A DNA stretch of 64,000 bases from Aureispira anguillae (GTDB taxonomy: Bacteria > Bacteroidota > Bacteroidia > Chitinophagales > Saprospiraceae), in contig NZ_AP026867.1 of assembly GCF_026000115.1 (NCBI RefSeq), forward strand, positions 2,325,501 through 2,389,500, written 5' to 3'. A program made the position numbers and the translations under genes. Positions 1-29,039 of the stretch are shown in pieces (position 1 is the first letter of the stretch; each line of letters begins with the position of its first letter). Below the pieces are notes generated by a model, which worked only from the letters and a program-made list of their open reading frames with translations, was not told the origin of the DNA and did not search any database.

Positions 1-467
1 CGTTTGTTGAGCACATGAATTTTGTCATTCTCAACATCAGGCTCTACAATAATTCGTTGACAGGTATCTTTTTGGAACAAAAAATCCATTACCGCAGAAA
101 AAATATGCCAAGTAAAACCACTAATTCGCTTTTCGGGTGCCTTGATTAGTATATGCATTCCCCAATCTCCCTCTAAGACGTTATAATGCGAACCAATCAA
201 TTCTGTCTTCGGATCATAAGCTTCCATCAAAAAAGTAGGTATGCCATTTATTTCACCGATATAAACCTCATAATTGGGAATGGCTAACAGATCTTCGTAG
301 ACATTGATTAGTACCTTTAAGTTGGCATCTAGCATCCCCCAATATTTTGCATGAGGACTTTTTACCCATTCCAACAACATAGCTGCATCTTGTTCTAAAT
401 CAAGCGCTCTAAAAGAGATTGGATATTGTTCTTGGAGTTTGTTCTTTGTTATAGATTCATTCATCAT
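1..467 (-). CDS. Siderophore N-acyltransferase, GNAT/AlcB type (3' end outside window)
   Basis: This gene would acylate an N-hydroxylated diamine to form the hydroxamate unit of a siderophore (DesC/AlcB/IucB logic, acyl-CoA donor). About 155 residues are visible. Near the N-terminus is the WVKSPHAKYWGM segment, followed by GEINGIPTFLMEAYDP, GDWGMHILI and RIIVEPDVENDKIHVLN. This is the order expected of the siderophore acetyltransferase (RhbD/AlcB) family. The start is fixed by an ATGA overlap: the upstream synthetase stops at TGA 466-464 and this ATG is 467-465, which indicates translational coupling. The C-terminus lies beyond base 1. The acyl group (acetyl or succinyl) cannot be read from sequence. 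Confidence 0.85.
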   Translation of the reverse strand, partial: MMNESITKNKLQEQYPISFRALDLEQDAAMLLEWVKSPHAKYWGMLDANLKVLINVYEDLLAIPNYEVYIGEINGIPTFLMEAYDPKTELIGSHYNVLEGDWGMHILIKAPEKRISGFTWHIFSAVMDFLFQKDTCQRIIVEPDVENDKIHVLNK

Positions 468-2314
468 GCTGTGGTATAGCTTTTTTCTGGTGAAGTTTTG
501 GGAGTCAATCGGTATTTAGCAATAGGATTTTCCAAACGCCCTATCAATTGTAACATCGTAGTAGGATCGTATAAATCAACCATTCGCTTATTGTTGTTCA
601 ATTGTAGACGATTCAAACAGGACAACTGAAAATCGGGAGCAAACAAATCATATTGTTCAAACTTGGCGTTTAATTCAGGAAACCTAGCTTGGTAGTCCAA
701 AATATTTTCTGCTACTAATTTCCAGAAATTGGCCTCATTATAATTAGCATGTTCCAATAAAATATGGGCTAAGTAGCGGAAAAAGCCATCAAAAACATCA
801 ATAAAAATAGAAAGCAATTTCACCTCTTCTTCTATTGGGGCATACATTCGTTCCAAGCCCTCAGGCAACACAACATCAGGATTTAAAATAACAGCTTCTT
901 CTGTAATATCTTTCAAAAATGCCTTGAATGGAATATGATCTTCTAAAACCAAAATTAAGTTCTCTCCATGAGGCATAAAAACAAGATCGTACTGATAAAA
1001 ACAATGCAAAAGAGGACTTAAATACGATTTTAAATAGTTCCTCAACCAATTATCCGTTGTTAATCCTGACGCTTTTATCAATTCAGGCAAAAAAGCAACT
1101 CCATTCTGATCCACATGTAATAATGCTGCCATGGTCATTAATTGTTGCCCTTCCTTAATCTTGCTAACAGGGCTTTCTCGCCACAACGAAGCCAGCATTC
1201 TATTGTAATCGTTTTGTGGTCCCAAATCTCCATAATAAGGATTGACATAACTAACAGAAGCAATTTCTCCTAGCATTTCAAATCCCGTTTCCAAAATGTA
1301 TTTGTCTTTCATCAACAAGTCCTCCAGCCAAACAGCCATTTGGGGAGCCGTTCCTAAGTAATAAATAGGCAAGCCTCTCATAAATCCCATGTTTAGGATA
1401 GACAACGCTGTTTTGGTATAAAACTTCTGTGGGTTACTGCTGTTAAAAAGGGTTCGAATTGACTGTTGAGCATAATATTCATCCTTTCCATAGCCCAAAC
1501 AAATCAGCTTTTCTTGTGCAATTTCTGGTGCAAAAATATTAGATAATTTGTTGAACCACTGCCAAGGATGCGCAGGAATGAAATAATAATCTTCTACATT
1601 TAAGCCTTTATTTTGAAGAATTTCACAAAAGCCATCAATTGTTTCTTGATCCAATTCGTGGCGAATTAGTTGATGATACTCCAACTCTTTCGTTCCTGCA
1701 TAAACAGTTCTGTCTTTGTGTCCCGCCAACCAAAGTAAGGGGAAAGAATGGCCAACTTCGGGAGCATAGGCTCTATAATCGCCACTATCAAAACCAATTC
1801 TACCATTGTTCGCCACAAAACCTGGATGCCCCTCCATCATTGTTTGTTCTATCGTTTGAAAATCCGCATTAACAAGTTCTTTGGACAAAGGGTTCCCTTT
1901 TAGATGTTTATAGGCACTTCCATATAAGGTACTGGTTATTTCTTCCAAGTACACCGCCAATCTTTCTTTTTCTAAGCCTAACACTGCACTAAATTCTTTG
2001 ATAAATAAAAGTGCATCCAAGTTCAATTTCTCTTCCTTTTGGAATTTGGCAATGGAATCCAATTGAATATACAGATGATTCAACTCCATTTTTTTTGCCT
2101 TAAACCTATAATAAATGTCATTTTTAGGGACGTGTAGCAGGTAGTTACTCCACCCTTTTTCGGTTCCTTCTAATTCGGGTTCTATTAAGTGTTCGTGTGC
2201 AAATTCCGTAATCGATTTTTTGATTAATAAACGATTAACCTGCTCCCATATTTGGGGTTGAATATGAGCAATTGCTTCTTGTGGCAATAATGCCTTGTCG
2301 TTAGTTGTATTCAT
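464..2314 (-). CDS. NIS siderophore synthetase, IucA/IucC family
   Basis: This ATP-dependent synthetase would condense or cyclise N-hydroxy-N-acyl-diamine units into a hydroxamate siderophore (DesD/BibC/AlcC-like). Its 616 residues match the usual family length. Visible motifs are EGHPGF (161-166) with GRIGF (171-175), HPWQW (249-253), QQSIRTLFN (283-291) and KTALSI (301-306), which form the nucleotide and substrate pocket, then a C-terminal FhuF-like domain with MPHGEN near residue 450. It is downstream of the exporter gene after a 249-bp gap and overlaps the acyltransferase by 4 bp. The gene set argues for a cadaverine- or putrescine-based product rather than aerobactin, because no citrate- or lysine-specific partner is present. 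That assignment is inference. Confidence 0.92.
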   Translation of the reverse strand: MNTTNDKALLPQEAIAHIQPQIWEQVNRLLIKKSITEFAHEHLIEPELEGTEKGWSNYLLHVPKNDIYYRFKAKKMELNHLYIQLDSIAKFQKEEKLNLDALLFIKEFSAVLGLEKERLAVYLEEITSTLYGSAYKHLKGNPLSKELVNADFQTIEQTMMEGHPGFVANNGRIGFDSGDYRAYAPEVGHSFPLLWLAGHKDRTVYAGTKELEYHQLIRHELDQETIDGFCEILQNKGLNVEDYYFIPAHPWQWFNKLSNIFAPEIAQEKLICLGYGKDEYYAQQSIRTLFNSSNPQKFYTKTALSILNMGFMRGLPIYYLGTAPQMAVWLEDLLMKDKYILETGFEMLGEIASVSYVNPYYGDLGPQNDYNRMLASLWRESPVSKIKEGQQLMTMAALLHVDQNGVAFLPELIKASGLTTDNWLRNYLKSYLSPLLHCFYQYDLVFMPHGENLILVLEDHIPFKAFLKDITEEAVILNPDVVLPEGLERMYAPIEEEVKLLSIFIDVFDGFFRYLAHILLEHANYNEANFWKLVAENILDYQARFPELNAKFEQYDLFAPDFQLSCLNRLQLNNNKRMVDLYDPTTMLQLIGRLENPIAKYRLTPKTSPEKSYTTA

Positions 2315-2563: not shown

Positions 2564-3739
2564 TCAAGATTTAGCAAGTTGTTCTTTGATTTTTATTTGT
2601 GCATAAAAAACAACCACATACAAAATTAGTGTGAGAACAAAACAGCCCAAAGCGATTATAAATGGCATTTGTAAGCCCTCAGCATCTACTATAATTCCGA
2701 CAAACAAAGAAGCCAATAGGACTCCTAAATTTTGGAAAAAATGAATCTTGCTATAATCCATAGCATAGGAATCTGGGTGGCTTTTTTCGAACAATAAAAC
2801 ATCAAAGCGAACCATAGCCTGAAAAATTGCCCATCCATAAATAACCCTTCCTAAGACTAGAATCCCATCTACAGAAGAAGCCTGTAACCACAAACCAATT
2901 ATCCCTAAAAATAAGGCAGACAAAATTCCTTGGTATAGATTTTTTACCGTTCTTCTTTTGTTGATAAACAAACCAATCAAGGCGACAAACCCAGGAATGG
3001 CATACATGGTTCCCGACACCAATTTGCTGTCATAAACAGAGATCAACTCCCAATACGATGAAAAAAACGGTCGAATTAAAAAATCTCCAAAATAGAGTAC
3101 GAGCGTTAACAAGCCTACTTTTAGAATAAAGCTATTGTTGGTAGGTGCTGTAGCCCTTTTTGTCTCTTGATTGGCAATATCTGCTGAAGCGAATTGCTTG
3201 TTATTGAGTAGATAGACACTCATTAACATCTGAACAAAATCGCCCAATGCCATAATCAAAAAGATATACCTAGGGTCTAATAAATCAACTGCTAATCCTC
3301 CTATTACGGCTCCAATAATTCCTCCCAAATGAACAATGACCGATAATAAGCCTATCGTATCGGTATGTTCTTCCTTCTTAACTATTTTTAGGATAAAAGG
3401 ATAAATCAATAAATAGCTCCCCTTAAAAAGAATCATCACTAAGGAGGCAATCCAAAAATTTAAATAAGAACTTGTTTCAAAACAATACAAGGCCAACATT
3501 CCTGCAATGGTCTGCGTTACAACCAATATTTTTAGTGTTGGTATTTTTTGAGAAAGATAAGCCCAAAAGGGAAAAGCGATCATTACCATAAAACAAATTG
3601 CTGCAAAATAATAACCCACCATTTTAGGGTCGGTAACCCCAAATCTCAATTCAAAAAATTGAGGATAAAAAGGATGCAATAAATAGTCACTTAAGACAGC
3701 AACTAAAGTCATTAAGATTAAAAAAGATCTTAAATTCAT
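2564..3739 (-). CDS. MFS transporter, probable siderophore exporter
   Basis: This is a 391-residue major facilitator protein with about 12 hydrophobic segments spread along its whole length, in the inner membrane. Its position between the N-hydroxylase and the synthetase makes export of the finished siderophore the most likely role; this comes from context, not from a diagnostic motif. ATG at 3739 is chosen over an upstream TTG at 3766. The ATG lies 10 nt after the hydroxylase stop and begins MNLRSFLILMTLVAVLSDYLL, directly entering the first membrane segment, whereas the TTG would overlap the previous gene. It could instead be an importer of the loaded siderophore. Confidence 0.8.
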   Translation of the reverse strand: MNLRSFLILMTLVAVLSDYLLHPFYPQFFELRFGVTDPKMVGYYFAAICFMVMIAFPFWAYLSQKIPTLKILVVTQTIAGMLALYCFETSSYLNFWIASLVMILFKGSYLLIYPFILKIVKKEEHTDTIGLLSVIVHLGGIIGAVIGGLAVDLLDPRYIFLIMALGDFVQMLMSVYLLNNKQFASADIANQETKRATAPTNNSFILKVGLLTLVLYFGDFLIRPFFSSYWELISVYDSKLVSGTMYAIPGFVALIGLFINKRRTVKNLYQGILSALFLGIIGLWLQASSVDGILVLGRVIYGWAIFQAMVRFDVLLFEKSHPDSYAMDYSKIHFFQNLGVLLASLFVGIIVDAEGLQMPFIIALGCFVLTLILYVVVFYAQIKIKEQLAKS

Positions 3740-3749
3740 GATCGTTTTT

Positions 3750-5087
3750 TTAGATTTGATGTTCAAGGTCTGTTAAGCATAATTCCTTCTTGGCATCAAT
3801 GCCAAAATCCTGAAAGGCAATTTGTTTTTCGATGGGATAATATTCTATCCCTGTTAACTCCTTGATGATGTAAGAATTGCGATAAGCTGCCATTCCCAAA
3901 TCAGGCGTAACAAAACCATGCGTATGCAGCTCTACATTCTGAACAAATATTTCTGTGGCATTTTGATCGATTGTATAATTTCTGTTCACATCAAACCTTG
4001 CCTTATTATCCCATTTAATTCGCCCTTTGATTGGCTCCAAAAAGGCAGGCATTTTGTATTGATAGCCTGTTGCCAAGATAACTGATTCTGTTTGATGACT
4101 ATAATACTTGTCTTGCTGTTGTTGGTGAAAAACAAGGTCAAACATATCGTGGGTCGGATCTATTGCTAATTCTTTGAGTTCTGAATGTGTTCTCAAATTG
4201 ATTTTCAGAGATGGGTCGATTAATTTTTTGGTATAAATCAGATCGTAAATAGCATTAATAAGATCGCCATTTATTCCCTTATACAAATGCTTTTGGCGAT
4301 TAATGATTTCATCTCTTTTTTGAGCGGGCAAATTATAAAAATAATCCACATATTCGGGCGAAGTCATTTCTAGTGTCAACTTGGTGTATTCCAATGGAAA
4401 ATAACGAGCAGATCGAGTCATCCAATTGAGCTCATAATTTTTGGCATCGATATCTTGCAACAAATCGTAGAAAATTTCGGCTGCACTTTGACCACTACCA
4501 ATAACAGTAATGCTCTTTTTCTTCTGCAAATCTGCTTTATGATTCAAGTATTGCGCAGAGTGTATCAGTTCTTCTTTTTTATGCGCACAACACTGGGGTA
4601 TATGTGGGCTAGTTCCTGTGCCCAAAATCAGTTTTTTAGTTTGATAAACTTGTTTTTCTTGATTATTGTTGTGTACCACATGAACAGCGTAAATTCCTTC
4701 CTCCTCTTTATAATAAATCCGTTCTACTTTAGATTCAAAATAGACATTGGGCAACTGTTCAATAACCCATTGGCAATATTTATTATACTCCTGTCTAAGC
4801 AACAAAAAATTCTCTCGAATGTAAAACGAATAGATTCGTCCTTGCTGCTTAATATAATTCAAAAAACTATAGGGATTCGTTGGATCTGCCAAGCTAACCA
4901 AATCAGCAATAAAAGGTATTTGTAGTGTCGTTCCTTCAATCATCATACCTGGATGCCAGTCAAAAGAAGTTGCTTGATCTAAAAATAATCCATCCAATTC
5001 TTTAATAGGCTCTGTGAGCGCAGCCAACCCTAAATTAAAAGGCCCAACTCCTATTGCTATAAAATCATAGCTATTCATTTTTTTCAT
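3750..5087 (-). CDS. Diamine/lysine/ornithine N-monooxygenase (siderophore N-hydroxylase)
   Basis: This FAD- and NADPH-dependent flavoprotein would hydroxylate the terminal amine of cadaverine (DesB-like) or a similar diamine. Its 445 residues are normal for the family. The FAD site GVGPFNLGLA is at 13-22, the family segment WHPGMMIEGTTLQIPF follows near 44-59, the NADPH site GSGQSAAE is at 197-204, and an LATGY motif lies in the C-terminal third. The start is the ATG at 5087, 10 nt after the decarboxylase stop. An upstream in-frame extension exists but runs into the decarboxylase gene. The neighbouring decarboxylase suggests that the substrate is a diamine rather than the amino acid itself. 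Confidence 0.92.
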   Translation of the reverse strand: MKKMNSYDFIAIGVGPFNLGLAALTEPIKELDGLFLDQATSFDWHPGMMIEGTTLQIPFIADLVSLADPTNPYSFLNYIKQQGRIYSFYIRENFLLLRQEYNKYCQWVIEQLPNVYFESKVERIYYKEEEGIYAVHVVHNNNQEKQVYQTKKLILGTGTSPHIPQCCAHKKEELIHSAQYLNHKADLQKKKSITVIGSGQSAAEIFYDLLQDIDAKNYELNWMTRSARYFPLEYTKLTLEMTSPEYVDYFYNLPAQKRDEIINRQKHLYKGINGDLINAIYDLIYTKKLIDPSLKINLRTHSELKELAIDPTHDMFDLVFHQQQQDKYYSHQTESVILATGYQYKMPAFLEPIKGRIKWDNKARFDVNRNYTIDQNATEIFVQNVELHTHGFVTPDLGMAAYRNSYIIKELTGIEYYPIEKQIAFQDFGIDAKKELCLTDLEHQI

Positions 5088-5097
5088 TGTGTGTGTT

Positions 5098-6600
5098 TTA
5101 ATTTTTAGTAGAATACAGACGACCTTGCTTAACAATAAGCTCAATAATGTGCTTAAGATCTTCAATCGTTGTTTTAGGATTTAATAAGGTAAATTTCAAA
5201 TAGACAATGCCGTTCACTTTTGTACTAGCAATAGAAGCCTGTCCAGTATCAAACAGTACTTTTTTAATGTATAAATTCACAGCATCATGAATGGTATTAT
5301 CTTGAATTTGTTGGTTGATTTGGTACCGAAATACCACGGTGCTTAATTCAGGCTGATGTAGCAATTCAAAGCAATTGGCTTCTTGCAACAAACGATAAGC
5401 ATCTAAGGCTCTTTGATGGATAATCTCTAAGAAAGCAGCAATTTTTTCGACTCCTGTCATCCTAAGCGTAAACCACAATTTTAGCGCATCAAACCTTCTT
5501 GTTGTTTGGATTGACTTAACAACTAAATTAGGCGTTTCTGCATCCTTTGTCTCTATTGGGTTTAAATAATCGGCGTAATGAGAAACATATTTAAAAGAAT
5601 CGGCATCAGCAGCTAAAAAGACACTAGAACAAACGGGTTGAAAAAAGGTCTTGTGAAAGTCTATCGTAATAGAATCTGCATATTTTATAGGTTCTAACGC
5701 CTGCTTGTGTGTCTTCGTAAAAACAAAACAACCTCCATAGGCACCATCTACATGCAACCACATTTTATTTGCCTTAGCAATTTTTGAAATTGGCGCTACA
5801 GGGTCTATACTTCCAAAGTCTGTTGTTCCTGTCGTTGCAACAACTGCAATAGGAATATTACCGTTTGCCTTCTCTAAAGCAATTGCTTTCTCTAAGGCAA
5901 CCGCATCCATTCGGTAAGTAGCATCCGTTGCGACTTCTACCACAGCATTGTATCCCAAACCAAGTAGAGCAGCATTCTTTTTAATGCTATAATGTGCCTT
6001 TTCGGAACAAAAAATTCTAAAGCGATGTACTTGCTCTGTAAAGCCATCTTTTTTTAGATTCAAGCCCAAATATTTATGAGCATAATGATCTCTTGCCATT
6101 AAAAGTCCCATAAAATTAGATTGAGTGCCCCCGCTCGTAAAAACGCCATCGGTTGTATTGGGCAGTTGAAAAACAGCGGCAATCCAGTTGATTAATTCTT
6201 GCTCAATTAGAGTACCAGAGGTGCTTTGATCCCATGTTTCAACCGCCGTATTAATCGTAGATGCCAAAAGGTCACCGATAATGGCAGGAATAGCTACGGG
6301 GCAATTTAAATGGGCGATATAAGTTTTGTCATGAAACGAAATGGCATGGTCCAAATAGAGTTCTTTTATTTCATCAAGTACCGACTCTATATTTAAAGGT
6401 GCCTCTGTCTTGTTAATCACCTGTTTCATTTTTGCCTTCAAATCTGTTACAGAGGCTCCACTATAAAACTTTTCACGCTCAAAAAAGCCAATTAAATAGT
6501 TTATTGTTTTTTCTATATTAATCTTTAAATCCTGGACAGATGAAACATCTAATATGCTATTAAAATCTATTTCACTCTTAGGAAGATATTCTACAATCAT
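5098..6600 (-). CDS. PLP-dependent group II decarboxylase, lysine/diamine-forming (DesA-like)
   Basis: This would decarboxylate an amino acid, most likely lysine to cadaverine, as the first committed step of siderophore assembly. It has 500 residues of the pyridoxal-dependent decarboxylase group II fold. TSGGTQSN (155-162) is the phosphate-contact loop, HVDGAYGG (283-290) carries the PLP-ring aspartate D285, and DFHKTFFQP (314-322) carries the Schiff-base lysine K317. It is the first gene of the minus-strand operon, immediately downstream of the promoter and operator region. Diaminobutyrate or ornithine are alternative substrates; the substrate cannot be settled by eye. Confidence 0.9.
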   Translation of the reverse strand: MIVEYLPKSEIDFNSILDVSSVQDLKINIEKTINYLIGFFEREKFYSGASVTDLKAKMKQVINKTEAPLNIESVLDEIKELYLDHAISFHDKTYIAHLNCPVAIPAIIGDLLASTINTAVETWDQSTSGTLIEQELINWIAAVFQLPNTTDGVFTSGGTQSNFMGLLMARDHYAHKYLGLNLKKDGFTEQVHRFRIFCSEKAHYSIKKNAALLGLGYNAVVEVATDATYRMDAVALEKAIALEKANGNIPIAVVATTGTTDFGSIDPVAPISKIAKANKMWLHVDGAYGGCFVFTKTHKQALEPIKYADSITIDFHKTFFQPVCSSVFLAADADSFKYVSHYADYLNPIETKDAETPNLVVKSIQTTRRFDALKLWFTLRMTGVEKIAAFLEIIHQRALDAYRLLQEANCFELLHQPELSTVVFRYQINQQIQDNTIHDAVNLYIKKVLFDTGQASIASTKVNGIVYLKFTLLNPKTTIEDLKHIIELIVKQGRLYSTKN

Positions 6601-6607
6601 TTCTTAT

Positions 6608-6628
6608 TTTTATTTAGTCTAAATAAAA
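6608..6628. promoter_or_regulatory. Perfect 21-bp palindrome, probable iron-repressor operator (proximal)
   Basis: TTTTATTTAG-T-CTAAATAAAA is a perfect palindrome with 10-bp arms. It lies between the -7 box and the decarboxylase start codon, where a bound repressor would block transcription. Its core, ATTTAG-N-CTAAAT, is repeated upstream of the -33 element. The TTAG-N-CTAA core resembles DtxR/IdeR-type metalloregulator sites more than a classical Fur box; the regulator is inferred. Confidence 0.7.
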
Positions 6629-6637
6629 TCAATGCCA

Positions 6638-6669
6638 CAAAACTAAATAAGAAAAAACTTAAAAGCAAA
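6638..6669 (-). promoter_or_regulatory. Bacteroidota-type promoter of the siderophore operon
   Basis: Read on the minus strand, a TTTG (-33) at 6669-6666 is followed after exactly 20 nt by TAGTTTTG (-7) at 6645-6638. This matches the Bacteroidota consensus TTTG-N19/21-TAnnTTTG. The transcript would start around 6630 and run into the decarboxylase. Palindromes flank it on both sides. Confidence 0.7.
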
Positions 6670-6671
6670 TT

Positions 6672-6684
6672 ATTTAGACTAAAT
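6672..6684. promoter_or_regulatory. Second operator copy ATTTAG-A-CTAAAT (distal)
   Basis: This 13-bp palindrome has the same ATTTAG/CTAAAT arms as the site at 6608-6628 and sits just upstream of the -33 element. A half site, CTAAATAA (6643-6650), overlaps the upstream edge of the -7 region. Two matching sites around one promoter support cooperative repression. Confidence 0.65.
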
Positions 6685-7055
6685 CCAAATAACATTTTAA
6701 TATGTTTGTTTTTTTCTAAAAAAGCAACCCCTTTATTACCAGAACCCTATCTTCTAAAAAAGCCCTCTTAGTGCTTTGAAAAAAAATTGTCATTTTTTTT
6801 TATTCGTTAAAAGTAGATATTTAATGCTTTCAAAAAAGCAATAGAAGCATGCAAGATCTAAATAAATTGGAGCCTGATAAAAAAAATAAATAAATGGTTT
6901 ATAAACAGGGGGTTATTTTCCACCTAAGCTAGTCGGATAGTTATTTAAAGACTCAAAAAGGTTTTCTTTTAATTGACCAATGGCCTAATATTGAAATTCA
7001 GAATAGCCCAGAATGGGTTGTCCTCTTTATTTTTTCAACCTATAATATTTAAATT
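6685..7055. other. Intergenic region between divergent transcription units
   Basis: No convincing coding frame was seen in these 371 AT-rich bases. They separate the siderophore operon (minus strand) from the T9SS protein gene (plus strand). A small hairpin, GCCCA-gaa-TGGGT, near 7005-7017 is too weak to name. The AT-rich stretch just before 7056 probably holds the plus-strand promoter. Confidence 0.4.
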
Positions 7056-28478: not shown

Positions 28479-29039
28479 ATGAAACATCAAATCTATTGGC
28501 TCACCAACTCTGAACTAGAAGAAATCGACTTGTATGATACTAGTTATAAAGAAGTTATTGCGCCTCAATATTCGGTTTTCAACAAATTTAAAACCTTGTT
28601 TAGAGCTAATCAAGACATATCTTTCGACACAAAGGTAGAACCTGTTGTTTTGAAACCGATCAATCAAAACACCTATGAAGTGGTCAACGAAGGACATTTA
28701 CCCTTTTTGATTTACATCTTTAAGTACTATTTATTTGAAAAAAAGATTGCCGCTAAAATAACGGCATTGTCTCAAAATAAAATCAAATTTGAAGCTGTAA
28801 AAATCGTAAAAAATGGGCTTCCCTATGGCCACAAAGAATATTTTAGACTAAAAGGGAAAATGGACTACCTAGCGGCTGACTATTGCGCTGAAACATCAAC
28901 CAGCAAGGATGCCATCTTTTTGGCCTTTGGCAGTTGTTTATATTTTTCTGAATCGCTAAAAAATAAACTAGAACCCTTTGTTCAGAAGAATTATAAAGGC
29001 TATCGTTTTGTGCCAGGCATACCAGCTTTAGTTTGCTAA
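28479..29039 (+). CDS. Unrecognised soluble protein
   Basis: This 186-residue protein has no signal peptide and no recognised domain. It is a mixed alpha/beta sequence with many Lys, Phe and Tyr residues and a Cys-containing end (FAFGSCLYFSES, then PGIPALVC). The codon pattern matches its neighbours. It stands alone between the DUF3500 hairpin and a roughly 200-bp gap. No function can be proposed. Confidence 0.5.
   Translation: MKHQIYWLTNSELEEIDLYDTSYKEVIAPQYSVFNKFKTLFRANQDISFDTKVEPVVLKPINQNTYEVVNEGHLPFLIYIFKYYLFEKKIAAKITALSQNKIKFEAVKIVKNGLPYGHKEYFRLKGKMDYLAADYCAETSTSKDAIFLAFGSCLYFSESLKNKLEPFVQKNYKGYRFVPGIPALVC

Follow-up and report, generated by a model that had tools for sequence, protein, structure and literature searches.

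Two palindromes flanking the predicted promoter of a siderophore operon in Aureispira anguillae are probable Fur boxes of the Bacteroidota type

The two palindromes ahead of the siderophore operon in the window, which is the whole stretch of 64,000 nucleotides of contig NZ_AP026867.1 analysed here, are most probably Fur boxes of the Bacteroidota type that would switch the operon off when iron is plentiful (probability roughly 0.85). The sites themselves, the genome-wide family to which they belong, the adjacent genes, the layout shared by three promoters and the agreement of the motif with a published Fur box were observed directly. The pair is a fresh example of a Fur-box type that is already known and represents mostly ordinary iron control. 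The analysis provides a sequence definition of the predicted Fur regulon in a little-studied Bacteroidota genome (7.79 Mb) and reassigns the palindromes from DtxR/IdeR to Fur. In an earlier sequence-only reading of the window, the proposal of operators and of a connection with iron was right, as far as predicted sites are concerned, but the assignment to DtxR/IdeR was wrong.

Direct reading confirmed the perfect 21-bp palindrome claimed at 6608-6628 (TTTT-ATTTAG-T-CTAAAT-AAAA, 10-1-10), and the core ATTTAG-N-CTAAAT was found twice as described, as ATTTAGTCTAAAT at 6612-6624 and as ATTTAGACTAAAT at 6672-6684. The minus-strand TTTG (6669-6666) and TAGTTTTG (6645-6638) with a gap of 20 nt, both said to lie between the palindromes, were also confirmed. 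The Bacteroidota promoter consensus consists of TTTG, about 17-23 nt, and TAnnTTTG, and TTTG-20-TAGTTTTG agrees with it by sequence, forming a predicted promoter; -7 and -33 elements are mentioned in the available text of PMC5609570. The features of the region, in which mismatches are counted against the 23-bp palindrome TTATTTRGAYTNARTCYAAATAA (the 23-mer), are as follows.

6670-6692, no strand assigned: predicted distal Fur box, TTATTTGGATTTAGTCTAAATAA on the minus strand, 0 mismatches, abutting the -33 element
6666-6669, minus strand: predicted -33 element TTTG, sequence match to the Bacteroidota consensus
6638-6645, minus strand: predicted -7 element TAGTTTTG, sequence match
6604-6626, no strand assigned: predicted proximal Fur box, TTATTTAGACTAAATAAAAATAA on the minus strand, 2 mismatches
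5098-6600, minus strand: PLP-dependent decarboxylase, operon gene 1 (PF00282, E 6.1e-61)
3750-5165, minus strand: lysine/ornithine N-monooxygenase (PF13434, E 2.8e-126)
2564-3766, minus strand: MFS transporter (PF07690, E 3.1e-22)
464-2314, minus strand: IucA/IucC siderophore synthetase (PF04183, E 1.3e-75)

The proximal box, whose right half is degenerate, overlaps the 21-bp palindrome and sits directly ahead of the ATG of the decarboxylase gene, which ends at 6600 and starts the minus-strand gene run. Beyond the left edge of the window the run is followed by a GNAT acetyltransferase gene and, further along, a TonB receptor gene, between which one ORF resembling a second IucA/IucC and one resembling a nitroreductase were recognised by eye. 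The gene run is a siderophore operon, and its gene content points to an NRPS-independent siderophore of the hydroxamate class. The window also encodes a type IX sorting domain, which together with the promoter type indicates a Bacteroidota genome. Among 298 genomes of the order, a similar decarboxylase was found in only one genome besides the host; in that genome, the 20-kb stretch of the siderophore locus (L041) lacked any match to the 23-mer with 6 or fewer mismatches, and the 8 kb beyond it contained one 6-mismatch match. Footprinting via orthologous operons was dropped, with this siteless stretch from the one comparable genome in the order.

The unit of the motif is the 23-mer and not the 13-mer core. 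The two cores were the only exact 13-mers in the window, and at up to two mismatches the window held 6 where 10.97 were expected, which means no enrichment of the relaxed 13-mer there. One two-mismatch copy, TTTTAGACTAAAA, lies at 28841-28853. In the whole genome the exact 13-mer occurred at 5 places versus 2 for the reversed pattern, which is hardly an enrichment, and with one mismatch at 79 versus 67 for the reversed control; on these counts it was rejected as the operator unit. Contexts were read for the three exact sites outside the window and for about ten of the 79 one-mismatch places. One of the three exact sites was at the 3' end of a TonB-like CDS and two were intergenic, with no iron gene recognised alongside these two. 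By comparison, when up to 3 mismatches were allowed, the 23-mer was found at 28 places and its reversed pattern at 5, so that about five of the 28 matches are expected by chance, and a wider form of it at 35 places versus 7 in the control. Judged by the contexts of its three exact copies outside the window, the literal 13-mer would nearly have failed the genome search for ATTTAG-N-CTAAAT that had been proposed as a check on the iron connection. The 13-mer core is off-centre in the 23-mer, with the two centres 3 bp apart, and is one of the overlapping side dyads inside the box. Pairing across the 28 sites was 0.68 at the middle axis, 0.64 at 3 bp to one side, 0.55 at 3 bp to the other side (axis 15) and 0.54 at axis 7, a symmetry that is partly by construction because the sites were chosen with a palindromic pattern, which favours the middle axis. 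Baichoo and Helmann reportedly described a two-dimer model of the Fur box.

The 28 places in the host correspond to 25 loci, three of them pairs, and genes related to iron, haem or Fe-S were recognised by Pfam or plain sequence at 16 of the 25, with 23-mer to gene distances of about 10 to about 220 bp. The 16 are HmuY followed by ORFs resembling a haem ABC set; imelysin; DUF4856 with imelysin; the window operon; the TonB receptor of that operon; a lipoprotein with a TonB receptor; a lipoprotein with a globin; an FbpA-like binding protein; FeoAB; flavodoxin; aconitase; NqrA; CtaA; two cytochrome c genes; and CcmE with a protein of cytochrome c assembly. No iron link was recognised at 9 of the 25 loci; of these, the site at 1517871 was inside a CDS, that at 6918207 was ahead of the gene for a 128-aa protein with a ZIP gene next, and the others adjoined either genes whose role is unknown or no recognised gene. 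A one-mismatch box at C1:128146-128168 (L068) lies 12 bp ahead of a DUF6686 gene, whose product is possibly an unrecognised iron-regulated protein. NqrA was preceded by a Fur-type box in the host (L076) and at four outside loci (L154, L156, L165, L168), so iron may also control Na+-NQR in this group.

The assignment to Fur came from comparison with published boxes and from other genomes. According to the available text of PMC5609570, the Fur box of Riemerella anatipestifer is ATTTAGAATTATTCTAAAT, supported by EMSA on four promoters, and PMC10986502, as far as its text was available, reports Mn-dependent Fur binding to the rhuB box ATTTAGAATTATCCTAAAT. The Riemerella-type pattern ATTTAGA-N5-TCTAAAT was found at both window sites, with 0 mismatches to the containing 23-mer at the distal site and 2 at the proximal one. 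The enterobacterial box quoted for Riemerella in the available part of PMC7976709 counts against the Fur-box match. So do the lack of a box at the host fur gene, the low number of 23-mers at fur in genomes not selected for one, the Ignavibacteria records behind four of the seven exact sites next to fur, the siteless siderophore locus of the other genome of the order, and the nine host loci with no recognised iron link. According to the available text of PMC6613475, the E. coli box was not bound by P. gingivalis Fur, so a single motif may not hold for all of the phylum.

An exact scan of named genomes with the 23-mer gave at least 119 stretches, 80 of which were listed; by hand count, 68 of the 80 listed titles name Bacteroidota taxa and 5 Ignavibacteria. 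Among the families listed for the 99 genes starting within 250 bp of the listed exact sites (the best 25 of 99 families), Pfam identified 11 TonB plug, 7 Fur, 6 SufB/D, 5 FeoA, 4 NqrA, 3 imelysin, 3 Fe-S assembly and 2 HmuY, together with 2 FbpA-like extracellular binding proteins and 2 periplasmic binding proteins. No dtxR was seen by eye among the gene starts listed near exact 23-mers. In 7 of the 80 listed loci (L108, L109, L133, L135, L140, L159, L170) the exact 23-mer was located directly ahead of fur, 4 of them in Ignavibacteria records and 3 in Bacteroidota. The host encodes one Fur (E 1.3e-29), which is similar to solved Fur proteins and contains ATVYNTL, presumably the core of the Fur recognition helix, which is identical in all seven Fur proteins whose genes adjoin the motif.

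The sequence-only reading had held that the core is closer to DtxR/IdeR sites than to a Fur box, in which case both sites would be DtxR/IdeR-family operators and a DtxR-like host protein, together with Fe or Mn, would be the repressor of the operon. The TTAG-N-CTAA core does resemble the middle of the IdeR consensus TTAGGTTAGSCTAACCTAA in the available text of PMC8464063, and one DtxR-family gene was present in the host and above the cut-off in 42 of the 46 motif-bearing genomes. However, the IdeR one-dimer site given in that text is TTAGG-N4-CCTAA (TTAGGNNNNCCTAA) and the box here is TTTAGA-N5-TCYAAA, so that the spacing is wrong (5, not 4, in both window sites). The extended motif instead shares the register of the Riemerella Fur box and stands at fur genes elsewhere, its neighbours in other genomes being iron, Fe-S and fur genes. 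In addition, the best match of the 23-mer in 37 DtxR-family upstream regions had at least 6 mismatches, and these regions carried an N4 palindrome in its place. With the wrong spacing and no 23-mer at dtxR genes, operators of the DtxR/IdeR family were rejected and appear quite unlikely.

The N4 palindrome was characterized by comparing upstream regions of about 500 bp for the top fur match (40 genomes) and the top dtxR match (37 genomes) in the genomes of 46 of the 80 listed loci, with six genomes that have an exact site at fur excluded and 3 of the 40 lacking a DtxR match above the cut-off. TTTAGA-N4-TCTAAA was exact in 17 of the 37 dtxR regions (L251-L287) and present at up to one mismatch in 25, compared with 0 and 1 for reversed halves, and none of the 17 exact sites was more than about 130 bp from where the DtxR domain match begins. 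In the fur regions it was exact in 0 of 40 (p 3e-7 against 17 of 37) and present at one mismatch in 1 of 40. The N5 form at up to one mismatch was found in 0 of the 37 dtxR regions and, at one mismatch, in 5 of the 40 fur regions (3 inside the gene start, 2 upstream); at two mismatches it was found in 10 of 40 fur regions, compared with 3 for reversed halves, and in 4 of 37 dtxR regions, compared with 11 for reversed halves. With as many as 4 mismatches allowed, the wider form of the 23-mer matched 4 of 40 fur versus 0 of 37 dtxR upstream regions (p 0.12), so fur autoregulation is not general. In the host the best match to the 23-mer had 6 mismatches both in the fur gene region, which has no box, and near dtxR, where no N4 match with one mismatch or less was present either; sites at the fur and dtxR genes of the host were rejected.

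Enrichment of the N4 16-mer in the host at up to 2 mismatches was not clear (334 versus 282). Its three exact host sites were at C1:6918879-6918894, directly ahead of a ZIP transporter gene, at C1:7272494-7272509, between a TonB-receptor-like gene and a divergent NUDIX-like gene, and inside a CDS. A Fur-type N5 box at C1:6918207-6918229 lies about 670 bp from the N4 box of the ZIP gene, with the gene for the 128-aa protein between them. The N4 20-mer was sparse, with 19 sites in 17 of 395 genomes and 7 sites for the reversed pattern. By eye, 3 of its 16 loci outside the host were at dtxR, 1 at an ABC-type metal permease and 3 at TonB receptors (L321, L322, L325; one shared with a dtxR locus); the rest comprised 3 at other genes and 7 in reading frames without a listed neighbour. 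The TonB receptors at N4 boxes are perhaps outer-membrane manganese receptors.

Taken with the N5 spacing of the Fur box, the N4 sites at dtxR genes suggest that Fur (iron) and DtxR/MntR (probably manganese), two unrelated families, may share the half-site TTTAGA in Bacteroidota and be separated mainly by one base of spacing, N5 for Fur and N4 for DtxR/MntR; we consider the odds of this rule to be about even. Outer bases may help the discrimination. Binding of DtxR-family proteins to the N4 sites and their sensing of manganese are what the position of these sites leads us to infer. Titles and abstract openings in the literature, with RegPrecise and most subscription journals outside the scope, revealed no Bacteroidota MntR motif or shared half-site. 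The suggested spacing difference is a more unusual result than the Fur-box pair itself. If the rule is true, a single insertion or deletion could shift a gene from iron to manganese control, and N5 versus N4 would be a simple, testable means, for this phylum, of separating predicted iron sites from predicted manganese ones, which look alike by eye.

The proposed operator-promoter-operator layout ahead of an iron-acquisition operon was supported and recurred, with predicted operators, at two more iron or haem promoters, those of hmuY and imelysin. At the siderophore operon, hmuY and imelysin, respectively, the centres of the paired boxes were 66, 69 and 69 bp apart, and the start of the distal box preceded the -7 element by 47, 48 and 48 bp; no TTTG was found 17-23 nt ahead of the -7 element of hmuY. 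In this paired geometry the distal box would lie where the promoter begins on its upstream side and the proximal box shortly past the expected start, as suits a repressor, and looping between the boxes is possible. Outside the host, second sites at up to 5 mismatches and 20-100 bp away were found at 10 of the 80 listed loci versus 17 of 705 control windows (p 1e-4). The spacing was 39-45 bp in 6 of these 10 pairs and 66-69 bp in none, and the paired geometry was rejected as a rule of the phylum.

With enough iron, metal-loaded Fur dimers would occupy both boxes, the distal one adjoining the -33 element and the proximal one located after the expected start and ahead of the ATG. RNA polymerase would then be excluded or trapped between the two, and the siderophore operon would be silent. 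When iron is scarce, Fur would be demetallated and depart, and the operon would be expressed together with its TonB receptor and the other box-bearing genes (hmuY, imelysin, feoAB and the fbpA-like gene). Fur occupancy, the iron response and repression at the operon are in this way predicted from the sites and their surroundings.

The proximal palindrome, lying between the expected start and the ATG and able to pair, might instead act as a leader RNA hairpin that masks the start codon. However, the predicted fold of the leader was -2.6 kcal/mol, with a z of -0.29 versus shuffles, on which the hairpin was rejected; moreover, at the other two paired promoters the box did not fold consistently into a hairpin (z -1.09 and 0.77), and the distal copy is outside the expected transcript, which makes this function very improbable. 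Slighter still is the probability that the palindromes are chance AT-rich sequence, as the unenriched relaxed 13-mer of the window and its lack of clear enrichment in the genome might suggest, since the 23-mer is enriched, iron genes adjoin it in the host and in other genomes, and the geometry repeats.

Compared with known systems, the Fur boxes predicted here resemble the IdeR/DtxR site described in the available text of PMC8464063 in their TTAG...CTAA halves but differ from it in spacing, which is 4 there and 5 in the window sites, and the dtxR-family promoters of the phylum carry N4. With the classical Fur box GATAATGATAATCATTATC, as quoted in the available text of PMC5609570, they have in common an odd-centred, AT-rich palindrome whose inner dyads overlap and are 6 bp apart, whereas the half-site sequence is different. 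With the Riemerella box, a 19-bp 9-1-9 palindrome in the published text available, they share the half-site TTTAGA, the N5 spacing and the register, as well as a position within 100 bp of the starts of iron-uptake genes, and there purified Fur shifts such promoters. Unlike the Riemerella box as given in that text, which has A at one position per half, the host box usually has C/T at this position, and the host shows 23 conserved bp and three promoters with a box on either side.
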